DNA of 64,000 nt, taken from Siphonobacter sp. BAB-5405. Its GTDB lineage: Bacteria > Bacteroidota > Bacteroidia > Cytophagales > Spirosomataceae. This document shows positions 51,476 to 55,396 of this stretch, piece after piece. Both the position numbers and the translations under genes were made by a program. The stretch spans positions 14,532 through 78,531 of the forward strand of contig NZ_NJAG01000003.1 in NCBI RefSeq assembly GCF_002872335.1, read 5' to 3'. Within the stretch, counting starts at the first letter, position 1. Each line of letters begins with the position of its first letter. The notes below the pieces were generated by a model. It saw nothing but the letters and a program-made list of their open reading frames with translations. It ran no database searches and had not been told where the DNA came from.

Positions 51476-53182
51476 ATGAGAAAACGCTTTATCAGCACGC
51501 TTGGGCTTGGCCTGCTGCTGGGAGGCCGTTTGTGGGCCCAGTCTGGCTATACCGACCAGGCGGCTTTAACCAAACGCCTTCAGCAACTTAACGCCCAGTA
51601 CAAGAACCTAACTTCCCTGCAATCCATCGGCAAAACATCTACTGGAAAAGACCTCTGGGTACTGAGTGTGGGTCAGGGCGATCGCGGCAAAAAACCGGCG
51701 GTCGTGATTGTCGCCAACCTGGAAGGCTGGCACCTGGCCGGTACAGAATTAACTCTGCAAACCGCAGAAAAATTATTAAGCGGAGCATCTTCCGACAGCG
51801 TAGCCCGATTGCTTACGAGCAAAACCTTCTACTTTCTACCTAACCTAAACCCCGATGCGGCGGCTCAGTACTTCGCTAAACTGAAATATGAGCGTTCGTC
51901 TACGGCCCGACCCGTGGACGAAGATCGGGACGGTCGCGTAGATGAAGACGGTCCGGAAGATTTGAACGGCGATGGGCTTATTACCCAAATCCGAATTGAA
52001 GATCCGACGGGAACCTACCGCGTAGCCAAAGGCGACCCTCGCGTATTGGTGAAAGCAGACGCTGCCAAGGGCGAACAGGGTCAGTACCTGATGTATACCG
52101 AAGGCATCGATAATGACAAAGATGGGGCGTTCAACGAGGACGGCCTCGGCGGAATTCACCTCAACAAAAACTTTACGTTCGAATACGAGCCCTTCAAACC
52201 CGGCTCGGGTGATTACCCCGTATCGGAATTGGAAAACCGGGCTTTGATCGACTGGTTGTACGAGAATAAAAACGTGTATGCTATTCTAACGTTTGGTCCT
52301 TCCAACAACCTGACCGAAGCCTACAAGTTTGATCCCATGAAGGCCAATCAGCGGGTCGTAAAAGGCTGGCAGGCGAAAGATGTGGCTGTCAATGAATACG
52401 TAAGCAAGCTGTACACGGCGACAGGACTGAAAGATGCTCCAAGTTTACCGTCCACGAAAGGCGATTTTCCTTCCTGGGCGTACTATCACTTCGGGAAGCT
52501 GAGTTTTTCAACGCCCGGCTGGTGGATGCCCAAGGATACTGCTCGGGCGGGCAGTCCTCGTCCGGCCGGAGCTACGCCAGTACCCGGTGGACGGCCCGGT
52601 ATGGGAGCTGGTCGCGGAGCCGCTGCGAGTCCGGCCCTAGGTTCAGAAGAAGACGTAGAACTGCTGAAATGGGCGAAAGCTAATAATATCGAAGCGTTTG
52701 TGGAATGGAAGGAAATTAAACACCCTGATTTTCCTGGTAAGAAAGTGGAAGTCGGTGGATTGGTACCTTTCGTCAAATGGAACCCACCCGTAGCTATGCT
52801 GACGCCGGCGGCCGAAAAACACGCCAGTTTTCTCTTGAGCGTAGCCAAAGCCATGCCCGAAGTAGAGATCGTGAATGTACAAACGGAAACGCTGTCGCCA
52901 GGTCTGAACCGTATTACGGTGGATGTGCACAACAAGGGTTTACTGCCGACGCACTCCGAACTGGGTAACCGGGTGAAATACGAAGACCGTCTGAAAATTG
53001 TGGCGACACCCGCCAAAAATCAGAAGCTGGTGTCGGGTCGTACGCATCAGCTGGTCCGCACCGCGATTGCCGGTAATGGAGTCGAGCAACTGACCTGGCT
53101 GGTATCGGGTACGGGAACGTTCACCATCGAAGCTTCGTCGGCACCGGCAGGTTCATCCAAAGTTACTGTTAATCTGAAATAA
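51476..53182 (+). CDS. M14 carboxypeptidase-like pseudoenzyme, catalytic residues lost
   Basis: 568 residues, signal peptide to WAQ. It is clearly paralogous to the next gene: the same start, the same calcium-loop-like acidic insert (DEDRDGRVDEDGPEDLNGDG) and same C-terminal beta domain. But the M14 residues are missing. The zinc motif HSNE of the neighbour is EGWH here (ANLEGWHLAGTE), the third zinc ligand in YHNYSG is replaced (ILTFGPSNN), the substrate Arg in NRDW becomes Lys (NKNF), and the catalytic Glu in SNELW is replaced (STPGWW). It keeps the fold, and its length and frame are intact. It also has a proline/glycine-rich insert near residues 350-390 (RPAGATPVPGGRPGMGAG). It likely binds peptides or helps the active partner. 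Confidence 0.82.
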   Translation: MRKRFISTLGLGLLLGGRLWAQSGYTDQAALTKRLQQLNAQYKNLTSLQSIGKTSTGKDLWVLSVGQGDRGKKPAVVIVANLEGWHLAGTELTLQTAEKLLSGASSDSVARLLTSKTFYFLPNLNPDAAAQYFAKLKYERSSTARPVDEDRDGRVDEDGPEDLNGDGLITQIRIEDPTGTYRVAKGDPRVLVKADAAKGEQGQYLMYTEGIDNDKDGAFNEDGLGGIHLNKNFTFEYEPFKPGSGDYPVSELENRALIDWLYENKNVYAILTFGPSNNLTEAYKFDPMKANQRVVKGWQAKDVAVNEYVSKLYTATGLKDAPSLPSTKGDFPSWAYYHFGKLSFSTPGWWMPKDTARAGSPRPAGATPVPGGRPGMGAGRGAAASPALGSEEDVELLKWAKANNIEAFVEWKEIKHPDFPGKKVEVGGLVPFVKWNPPVAMLTPAAEKHASFLLSVAKAMPEVEIVNVQTETLSPGLNRITVDVHNKGLLPTHSELGNRVKYEDRLKIVATPAKNQKLVSGRTHQLVRTAIAGNGVEQLTWLVSGTGTFTIEASSAPAGSSKVTVNLK

Positions 53183-53190
53183 GGAGGGGT

Positions 53191-53393
53191 GTTTGCGGTG
53201 GTTTGACTAGCGTTTGAGAAGGTTTAAGTTGGTTTCAGGTAGTTTGAAAAAGGGTTTGTTAATGTTTGAAAAGGTAGGATGAAGTAAAAGGAAGTGTGGT
53301 ATGATCTACGCTTGAATAAGCCTTCAAACCGTATCAAACTAGAAACCCATTTAAACCAAAAACGTACGCAAACTAGAAACGCAGTCAAATCCA
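53191..53393. repeat. Two inverted arrays of short GTTTGA / AAAC repeats between the M14 genes
   Basis: The left array has eight GTTTGA-like words starting at 53191, 53201, 53212, 53222, 53232, 53242, 53254 and 53264, spaced 10-12 bases. The right array has words AAAC (last AAAT) at 53326, 53336, 53343, 53353, 53360, 53370, 53377 and 53387, spaced alternately 10 and 7, which means four 17-base units. The two arrays are reverse complementary in type and would fold as a large imperfect hairpin. Confidence 0.8.
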
Positions 53394-53424
53394 GACAAGC
53401 ACTTCTCCATTATACGCTATTTCC

Positions 53425-55218
53425 ATGAAGAAAATTTTAACCCTTTCGCTGCTGCTGTCGGGCGTATCGGTGCTGGCTCAGCAGAAAGATCCCATCGGCA
53501 TTCGGGCCATTGGTACGCCGCCCAATCCGAAAGTACAGGTTGCCTGGAACCGGTACTACGACTACAAAGGTCTCGTTGACATCATGCAACGCATGGTGAA
53601 GGCGTACCCGAATCTGGCGAAACTCGAAACCATCGGTAAATCGCAGCAGGGTCGCGACCTGTATGTATTGACGATAACGGATCTGAAGTCCGGCAAAAGT
53701 GATACGCAGAAACCTGCTTTCTGGACGGATGCCAACATTCACTCGAATGAATTACAGGGCTCTGAAATGGCTCTGTACGCGGCCTGGTACCTGACCGAAA
53801 ATCACGCCAATAATCAGTTTATTAAGGAATTGCTGCGGGATAAAACCTTTTATTTCGCTCCGACGATCAACCCCGACGCCCGCGAGGATTTTATCTACAA
53901 GCCCAATACGGCCAACACGCCCCGCTCGGGTATGACGCCGATTGACGATGACGGCGATGGACTGGTCGACGAGGATAATTTCGATGATCTCGACGGCGAC
54001 GGTGAGATTACGATGATGCGTCGGAAGTCTCCCTATGGTCGTTTGAAAGTAAATCCGGAAGATCCCCGGATGCTCATTCCGGCAAAACCCGACGAAGCGG
54101 GCGAGTACGAAATGCTCGGGATCGAAGGCCTCGATAACGACGGTGATGGACTCGTCAATGAAGACCGTCCCGGTAGCTACGATCCGAACCGCGACTGGGC
54201 CTGGAACTGGCAGCCCGATTACATTCAGGGCGGAGCTTATAAATACCCGTTTAGTCTGCCCGAGCCGCGAGTGATTATGGAATGGGTGATGAAGCACCCC
54301 AACATTGCCGGGGCTCAGAGTTACCACAATTATAGCGGGATGTTTTTACGCGGTCCCGGAGCGGCTGAAGACGATGTACATTACGATCCGGCTGACGTAC
54401 AGGTCTACGATTATTTGGGCAAAACGGGCGAGAAAATGATCCCAACCTACCAGTACGGAGCCATTCACAAAATTCTGTATACGGTGTACGGGGGAGAAAT
54501 CGACTGGTTTGCTCTGGGTCGCGGGATTTTCATGTTCTCGAATGAATTGTGGACGTCCTATCTGTATTTCAACAAAAAAGGCGAAGCCAACGAACTTCGG
54601 AACGCTCCCAATACGGAGCCGTACGATTTTGATCGGCTGCTGCTACACGGTGATGCCTTTGTGGACTGGAAACCCTTCAAACACCCGCAGTACGGCGATA
54701 TTGAAATCGGTGGATTCAAGAAAAATTACATTCGGAATCACCCCGGCTTTATCCTCGAAACGGACGGTCACCGTAACGCGGCCTTCACGATTTTCCACGC
54801 GAACCAGATGCCTAAAATCGAGGTGAAGGAAGTAGCAAAGAAAGAACTGGGCAACGGACTCACGGAAATTACGGCCACGATTATCAACAGCCGCATTATT
54901 CCTACGCACTCGTCGTTTGATGTGAAAAACAAAATCAACCTGCCCGATTACATTACTCTTAAAGAGGCTCAGGTAGTAAGTGGTCTGCAAATGACGAATC
55001 CCGATGGAAGTGGGTACGGATACGGCTCTACCCCGGCTTTTGAAAGCTACAAAGAGCAGAAACTTAACCCGCAAACGCTGGAAGTTGCCAATATTCCGGG
55101 AATGGGCTACGTTCGCCTTCGCTGGATTGTGAAAGGAAACCCGGCCAACTGGAATATCGAAGTCAACAGCCAGAAAGGTGGTCTGACGACGGCTACGGGT
55201 AGTTTTGCGAAGAAGTAG
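53425..55218 (+). CDS. M14-family zinc carboxypeptidase, secreted
   Basis: 597 residues with a signal peptide to LAQ (about residue 18). M14 residues are present: zinc ligands in ANIHSNELQGSE (HSNE) and YHNYSG (His), substrate-binding NRDW, and the catalytic Glu in MFSNELWTSYL. Calcium-loop-like DxDxDG motifs occur twice (DDDGDGLVDEDNFDD and DNDGDGLVNEDRPG). The C-terminal domain is a beta-sandwich. It removes C-terminal residues from peptides outside the cytoplasm. It is paired with the degenerate paralogue at 51476, 242 bases upstream, with a repeat array between. Confidence 0.9.
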   Translation: MKKILTLSLLLSGVSVLAQQKDPIGIRAIGTPPNPKVQVAWNRYYDYKGLVDIMQRMVKAYPNLAKLETIGKSQQGRDLYVLTITDLKSGKSDTQKPAFWTDANIHSNELQGSEMALYAAWYLTENHANNQFIKELLRDKTFYFAPTINPDAREDFIYKPNTANTPRSGMTPIDDDGDGLVDEDNFDDLDGDGEITMMRRKSPYGRLKVNPEDPRMLIPAKPDEAGEYEMLGIEGLDNDGDGLVNEDRPGSYDPNRDWAWNWQPDYIQGGAYKYPFSLPEPRVIMEWVMKHPNIAGAQSYHNYSGMFLRGPGAAEDDVHYDPADVQVYDYLGKTGEKMIPTYQYGAIHKILYTVYGGEIDWFALGRGIFMFSNELWTSYLYFNKKGEANELRNAPNTEPYDFDRLLLHGDAFVDWKPFKHPQYGDIEIGGFKKNYIRNHPGFILETDGHRNAAFTIFHANQMPKIEVKEVAKKELGNGLTEITATIINSRIIPTHSSFDVKNKINLPDYITLKEAQVVSGLQMTNPDGSGYGYGSTPAFESYKEQKLNPQTLEVANIPGMGYVRLRWIVKGNPANWNIEVNSQKGGLTTATGSFAKK

Positions 55219-55357: not shown

Positions 55358-55396
55358 TAAAAAGACGCTGTTCCTCCGGGGATAGCGTCTTTTTTC
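55358..55396 (+). terminator. Terminator after the M14 peptidase
   Basis: An 11-bp stem (55359-55369 with 55384-55394), ending in a T run. It closes the peptidase transcript, after the repeat array. Confidence 0.8.

Follow-up and report, generated by a model that had tools for sequence, protein, structure and literature searches.

A tandem pair of genes in Siphonobacter sp. BAB-5405 encodes two homologs of the M14 zinc carboxypeptidases, the second of which retains the full catalytic set while the first has lost it, in the window (the whole 64,000-nucleotide stretch of contig NZ_NJAG01000003.1 that was analyzed) as in most of the lineages that carry the pair. Gene A (51476..53182, plus strand) encodes a predicted secreted M14-fold pseudocarboxypeptidase of 568 amino acids, and gene B (53425..55218, plus strand) a predicted secreted M14 zinc carboxypeptidase homolog of 597 amino acids. 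We consider it somewhat more probable than not that A is an obligate noncatalytic subunit of a secreted two-protein complex with B, in which the two proteins pair through their scaffolds and whose central task is to bind or to scaffold. This reading is built on the loss of the catalytic residues from A throughout its family, the retention of its predicted fold under purifying selection, its co-occurrence and adjacency with B, and its persistence in a clade where B itself has lost zinc ligands.

The initial annotation had stated that the zinc ligands, the substrate-binding Arg, and the catalytic Glu of A are replaced at the positions where B keeps them, and the alignment bears this out. In the numbering of bovine carboxypeptidase A, the window's A carries Glu83 and His86 (Glu83-Gly-Trp-His86, 51722..51733, plus strand) in place of His69 and Glu72 of the His69-x-x-Glu72 zinc motif, Ala129 in place of Arg127, Lys231 in place of Arg145, Gly274 (52295..52297, plus strand) in place of the zinc ligand His196, and Pro347 (52514..52516, plus strand) in place of the general base Glu270. 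B retains the equivalents of all six, including the zinc motif His106-Ser-Asn-Glu109 (53740..53751), the third zinc ligand His301 (54325..54327), and the general base Glu374 (54544..54546), all on the plus strand. We then read these positions in 56 A and 56 B sequences, from which frames shorter than 500 amino acids (cut by contig ends or split by frame), A matches below 300 bits, B matches below 500 bits, and identical rows had been dropped and near-identical rows kept. His69, Glu72, Arg127, His196, and Glu270 are each kept in none of the 56 A sequences, whereas both His, both Glu, and Arg145 are present in all 56 B sequences, a set whose threshold of more than 500 bits kept out any B that is strongly degenerate; Tyr248 is likewise Tyr in 56/56 B and 0/56 A. 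At position 69, A has Glu in 34 sequences, Asp in 14, Lys in 7, and Asn in 1; His occupies position 72 in 46, Gly position 196 in 46, and Pro position 270 in 51. Eight further A sequences from genera g191 and g251 also lack the catalytic set, with the exception of a His at position 69 in the A of genome G591. For B, the catalytic residues were read in 56 + 7 + 3 sequences rather than in every B of the 390-genome search described below. Since the same pattern is found in all 56 A sequences, the catalytic loss in A is not due to chance.

At several positions of the former active site, A has a different residue that is itself conserved, namely Gly274, Asn277, Asn278, and Leu279 in a TFGPxNNL segment and Thr346 and Pro347 in a TPGWW segment, and these fixed replacements suggest rebuilding of the old active site rather than drift. 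A also has conserved His, Asp, and Glu residues of its own that B lacks: His338 (96%), Asp418 (91%), Asp195 (88%), Asp354 (88%), Glu98 (86%), Glu471 (86%), and His449 (80%).

Outside the catalytic center, the two proteins have kept a common architecture. They share 30% identity over nearly their full length (E 4e-58), and Pfam Peptidase_M14 matches both A (E 7.5e-21) and B (E 1.3e-38); A has the predicted M14 fold, and B has this fold together with the three zinc ligands and Glu270. No discoidin or propeptide domain was found at the N terminus of A, where Pfam detects only Peptidase_M14, from residue 33, and neither protein matched NCBIfam at E 0.1. Both carry DxDxDG loops of the type that binds calcium, and presumably do so here: a first loop region at Asp148-Asp166 of A (51917..51973) and Asp174-Asp192 of B (53944..54000), and a second loop at Asp212-Asp222 of A (52109..52141) and Asp237-Asp247 of B (54133..54165), all on the plus strand. 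A beta-rich C-terminal region that begins at residue 463 of A (52862..53179, plus strand) has a counterpart in B. A signal peptide-like N terminus, judged by a simple hydrophobicity count plus reading by eye, is found in 51/56 A and 42/56 B sequences, so that both proteins are likely to be exported. The earlier description of A as an open frame of similar length that keeps its signal peptide and calcium-type loops thus holds. Its claim of a Gly/Pro-rich insert holds in part: residues 355 to 387 of the window's A (52538..52636, plus strand) are a Gly/Pro/Ala-rich linker (59% G+P+A) that is predicted to be disordered (predicted local distance difference test below 50), but the stretch ranges from 9 to 91 amino acids across the 56 A sequences and is lineage-specific rather than a feature of the family. 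Two divergent A proteins (L128:6631-8691 and L129:5070-7112) have a stretch of 86 to 91 residues instead of the linker.

The phylogeny and the substitution pattern mark A as an old subfamily and not a decaying copy. In a tree of 116 rows, A and B each fall on one side of a branch, with Shimodaira-Hasegawa approximate likelihood ratio test supports of 92 and 99, and they separate again (97 and 99) in a tree of 52 rows rooted with two haloarchaeal M14 proteins, which served only as the outgroup. The catalytic loss would therefore most simply be a single event on the stem of A. A third calcium-loop M14 paralog lies on another contig of the window genome (G000:C51:4687-6384, locus L031), where no second M14 was found on the same contig, and has a relative in G033 (locus L029). 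It keeps His69, Glu72, and Glu270, with Asp at His196 and with Arg127 replaced by Ser (L031) or Ala (L029). This paralog falls outside A and B in the 116-row tree and joins B at support 90 in the haloarchaea-rooted tree, and B may therefore be closer to it than to A. The ratio of nonsynonymous to synonymous substitutions (dN/dS), computed by simple NG86 counting, could be obtained for 13 of 17 A pairs, and 5 of these were at or above a synonymous difference of 0.70, where ratios were not relied on. The 8 pairs below this limit gave 0.019 to 0.085, a range shared by all 13, and B was below A in 8 of the 9 pairs in which both were computable. The low ratio for the degenerate copy, together with the predicted M14 fold and the recurrence of the pair, agrees with the initial annotation that a noncatalytic role has been selected. 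A relic that is open by accident would have to explain these values, and we regard it as practically negligible. It could point to the frame shift of A in the Siphonobacter genome G002 (L044, L145) and to its split in G172 (L123), but the dN/dS values and the phylogenetic spread refute it: 56 A frames of at least 500 amino acids are found across the phylum, and in simulations on a B frame (30 at each distance), a neutral frame of 556 codons gained a mean of 11 to 25 in-frame stops at distances of 0.2 to 1.0. In G002 (L044:4896-6691, the same region as L145), A has a one-base frame shift next to an intact B, which could be recent decay or an assembly error. In G172 (L123:6215-11360), A is split into two overlapping frames followed by two tandem copies of B.

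The co-occurrence of A and B is close to complete across the genomes that we surveyed, which covered the Bacteroidota and the Calditrichota, with up to four candidates scored per genome in a search of 296 genomes of the phylum and up to three in a search of 390 genomes of the order. As the initial annotation had anticipated, the pair recurs in related genomes. Among 59 near relatives, with the window genome included, A is present in 16 (two further weak matches were not counted). The phylum census found A in 30 genomes, B above 500 bits in 31, and both in 30; in the sole exception, G191, B lies at the very start of a contig. In the order, A was found in 83 genomes (E up to 1e-60) and B in 79 (E up to 1e-120). 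All 79 genomes with B have A, which in 77 immediately precedes B in the same orientation, and two of these 79 B proteins (G579 and G698) lack zinc ligands. Four order genomes have A without a B at the cutoff: in G463, A is truncated by the contig end; in G465, a 350-contig assembly, B was not found on the 12 kb read; and in G591 and G640, B is present but degenerate. Within the fetched loci, B is directly downstream in 61 of 65 distinct A copies (told apart by the final 120 residues of their frames), while three of the remaining copies run into a contig end and one is that of G247. Of the genes around the pair, none is shared by more than 4 of 36 representative loci. Given the constant partner and the lack of any other recurrent neighbor, the two genes move together as a unit while their surroundings change. 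Farther afield, A was found in 1 of 40 Calditrichota genomes, and plasmid records yielded one distant haloarchaeal record for A and five records for B. On a plasmid of Halomontanus rarus, two nonadjacent haloarchaeal M14 proteins (L150:5983-7617 and L151:3007-4668) can be aligned to A and B along most of the sequence, with the zinc motif retained on inspection by eye; the architecture thus extends to the Archaea. One B match, G534:C8:61681-63417, contains a single in-frame TAA.

An unexpected observation comes from genus g251 of the same order, where three species have a B with an intact zinc site and four (G698, G579, G640, and G591, the last three represented by single-contig assemblies) have a B that lacks two or three zinc ligands and is presumably inactive as a peptidase. 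In G698, B has lost His69, Glu72, and Tyr248 and kept His196, Arg127, and Glu270; in G579, it has lost His69, Glu72, Arg127, Arg145, and His196 and kept Tyr248 and Glu270; and in G640 and G591, all three zinc ligands, Arg145, Tyr248, and Glu270 (replaced by His) are gone, with a deletion across the Tyr248 region and, in G640, an Arg still aligned at 127. A search aimed at copies of B, in which all candidates were scored, found no second copy in the seven g251 genomes, with two weak matches elsewhere at 36 to 38 bits. In the four species with the degenerate B, the two frames are both open and adjacent, A is full length, and B still has each of the 13 calcium-loop acids that were scored. Relative to the intact B of G548, the segment from His196 to Glu270 retains 49, 46, 12, and 20% identity and the Arg127 segment 61, 32, 32, and 29% (G698, G579, G640, and G591, respectively), while the N-lobe, the calcium insert, the stretch after the insert, and the C-terminal domain retain 40 to 83%, and in each species all four of these scaffold segments exceed its own His196-to-Glu270 value. 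Between intact B proteins of different genera (G548 and L112), the cleft segment is 69% and the C-terminal domain 51% identical, meaning that the order of conservation is reversed in the degenerate B. Here A is also more conserved than B (69 versus 53% for G640/G591 and 66.5 versus 52.6% for G698/G579). Both trees unite the four species (88/93 for A and 96/95 for B), so that a single loss would suffice. The simplest reading of this clade is that the job of the pair survives the loss of B's peptidase site, and the pair thus probably does something besides cutting.

These observations bear directly on the alternatives. If A, like alpha-MPP or TldE, served B solely as a helper in catalysis, it would complete the substrate cavity or switch B on and be useless without B activity. 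Pairs of active and inactive metallopeptidases are established for the M16B enzyme MPP (as covered in PMC11266112) and for TldD/TldE (as covered in PMC5810440), the pairing of A with B is nearly universal, and A is under relaxed constraint where B has lost zinc ligands, as such a role predicts. What makes this explanation unlikely is that four of the seven g251 genomes encode a B that lacks zinc ligands, with no second B found, and still have an open, full-length A that is 66 to 69% identical within the pairs G698/G579 and G640/G591. The clade weakens the helper role, which may nevertheless apply elsewhere in the family, and the suggestion of the initial annotation that A regulates its active neighbor is, by the same token, unlikely to describe its whole role. 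A could instead be an independent secreted binding protein that acts in the pathway of B, for example by catching peptides that B trims, and never contacts B. This would suit a protein that keeps a complete predicted fold, has conserved residues particular to it where the active site used to be, and is unlinked from B in three genomes; we consider it quite unlikely, as none of the 79 genomes with B lacks A and as B, too, is kept in the g251 clade, where it would need a role without a zinc site. Very unlikely, in our judgment, is a new chemistry in which the swapped Glu83 and His86 and other residues make up a novel site for metal binding or catalysis. Acidic residues occupy position 69 in 48/56 A sequences, position 72 is mostly His, and the conserved residues particular to A (His86 and the seven listed above) could serve as ligands of such a site, but divergent A proteins have Lys at 69 (7/56) or Gln, Asp, Ile, Leu, Ser, or Arg at 72 (10/56), and the general-base position is nearly always Pro.

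Several observations stand against the complex with an obligate noncatalytic subunit that we favor. The segments near the former catalytic residues of A are only slightly more conserved than the rest of A (mean entropy 1.38 versus 1.65, p 0.03, with a neighboring column taken for Tyr248), and the correlation between the A and B distances (Mantel r 0.905, 51 pairs) is expected for any two genes that move together. A and B lie on different contigs in G247, G391, and G441, and a gap of 242 nucleotides (nt) argues against translational coupling in the window. The initial annotation had held that relatives with a decayed or absent first gene would speak against a noncatalytic role; the pair is widespread, but A is frame-broken in the two genomes G002 and G172, and most genomes of the order have neither gene (A in 83/390). 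With respect to g251, the search for a second B leaves room for other, unrelated M14 peptidases, and residues 400 to 450 of the degenerate B, which lie outside the cleft, drop in identity as well (65, 59, 31, and 35%). The grouping of the four species involves long branches in the B tree and moderate support in the A tree, and several losses may have occurred. Moreover, A is less constrained in this clade, with a dN/dS of 0.131 to 0.145 for G698 against the intact-B species G692 and G712 and of 0.136 for G698/G579, compared to 0.062 for the intact pair G692/G712 (the ratio of 0.067 for G640/G591 is saturated and was not used). The degenerate B itself gives 0.228 for G698/G579, and a slow decay of the whole pair in this clade is possible.

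In most genomes, the spacing of the two genes suggests an operon. With first-Met starts assumed, A and B are separated by a median of 10 nt in 51 pairs, 46 of which have a gap of at most 60 nt, and the two genes would thus be cotranscribed. Among these pairs, a spacer of 242 to 243 nt is found only in the window genome (53183..53424) and its near-identical relative G001. The window spacer contains inverted words of the GTTTGA/CAAAC type, and a part of the spacer recurs once, as a weak second copy, on C10 of the same genome; the idea that it is a multicopy element was rejected on this count. Downstream of B, a pattern scan marked a terminator-like hairpin of 16 pairs followed by a T-rich tail (55359..55394, plus strand). 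Terminator-like sites are hardly enriched in the region over shuffled sequences (8 found, 6.6 expected), and promoter-like matches are no commoner than in shuffles. The operon structure therefore rests on comparative spacing.

Each half of this arrangement has precedents in other families. M16 peptidases have an HxxEH motif and a fold unlike that of M14, and TldD/TldE have a different fold again and are cytoplasmic; eukaryotic M14 pseudopeptidases are not known to be encoded in an operon with an active partner. According to the sections of PMC11266112 on which we draw, M16B pairs comprise alpha-MPP/beta-MPP, prokaryotic two-gene operons, and Core I/II of the bc1 complex. As in A and B, an inactive and an active homolog are encoded together and the inactive subunit keeps its fold and is needed, and the Core subunits are in some cases pseudopeptidases, which resembles the situation in g251. 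The M14 pair differs in being predicted to be secreted, in its calcium-type loops, and in that its heterodimer is proposed from sequence alone. In TldD/TldE of Escherichia coli, as excerpted from PMC5810440, a bacterial metalloprotease is likewise accompanied by an inactive homolog without any metal ligand, which is essential for activity, and the structure of the heterodimer has been solved; the activity of TldD/TldE is known, whereas that of A-B would follow from the residues of B. Eukaryotic M14 pseudopeptidases, with AEBP1, CPXM1, CPXM2, domain III of CPD, and Ecm14 as the examples in the parts of PMC11266112 and PMC7706225 used here, combine an M14 fold with substituted catalytic residues, as A does. 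Those tabulated in PMC11266112 keep at least one zinc ligand (His69 and Glu72 in AEBP1), unlike A, which has lost all three together with Arg127, Tyr248, and Glu270. No prokaryotic M14 case is named in the consulted parts of the M14 pseudopeptidase review (PMC11266112; PMC7706225), and no prokaryotic M14 pseudoenzyme pair was found described in the open PMC literature, a scope outside which most subscription papers fall. From the LytM/M23 family, the text of PMC5053510 cited here reports Csd1/Csd2 of Helicobacter pylori, a heterodimer of a metallopeptidase and a degenerate homolog, as well as the LytM domain of EnvC, in which residues around the degenerate site are needed to activate amidases. 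CspB of Clostridioides difficile is encoded with the pseudoproteases CspA and CspC, which an extract of PMC6464247 presents as proposed ligand receptors controlling the active protease; unlike the M14 pair, these proteins are subtilisin-like and act in spores. Active/inactive metallopeptidase pairs (M16B, TldD/TldE) and eukaryotic M14 pseudoenzymes are thus already known, and what would be new is the M14 version as a bacterial gene pair.

Taken together, we propose that A and B are ancient paralogs of a calcium-loop M14 carboxypeptidase, that A lost its zinc site early, and that several of its former active-site positions then became fixed as other residues. The two proteins would be made from one operon, exported, and paired through the scaffold that they share, with its calcium-type loops and its beta-rich C-terminal region. 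B would act in most lineages by trimming residues from the C terminus of peptides, while A would hold or present the ligand or stabilize B. Since the pair of one clade seems to function without the zinc site of B, binding or scaffolding would be the core job. It is tempting to go further, with confidence that stays below even, and to see in A-B a secreted, calcium-scaffolded recognition complex of two carboxypeptidase folds that can do without peptidase activity: A would be the constant part, and B would have been switched off in one clade with its scaffold and calcium loops kept and its cleft lost. This would make the pair an M14 counterpart of MPP and Core I/II across the Bacteroidota and a natural separation of binding from catalysis. 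The Pfam label still calls A a peptidase. If A and B do form a complex, some "M14 peptidases" of the Bacteroidota would be assemblies of two subunits, and testing B by itself could overlook its function. Genus g251, with its three species with an intact and four with a degenerate B, is a natural experiment on the role that a pseudoenzyme partner plays after catalysis has been lost, for which engineered mutants are otherwise used.

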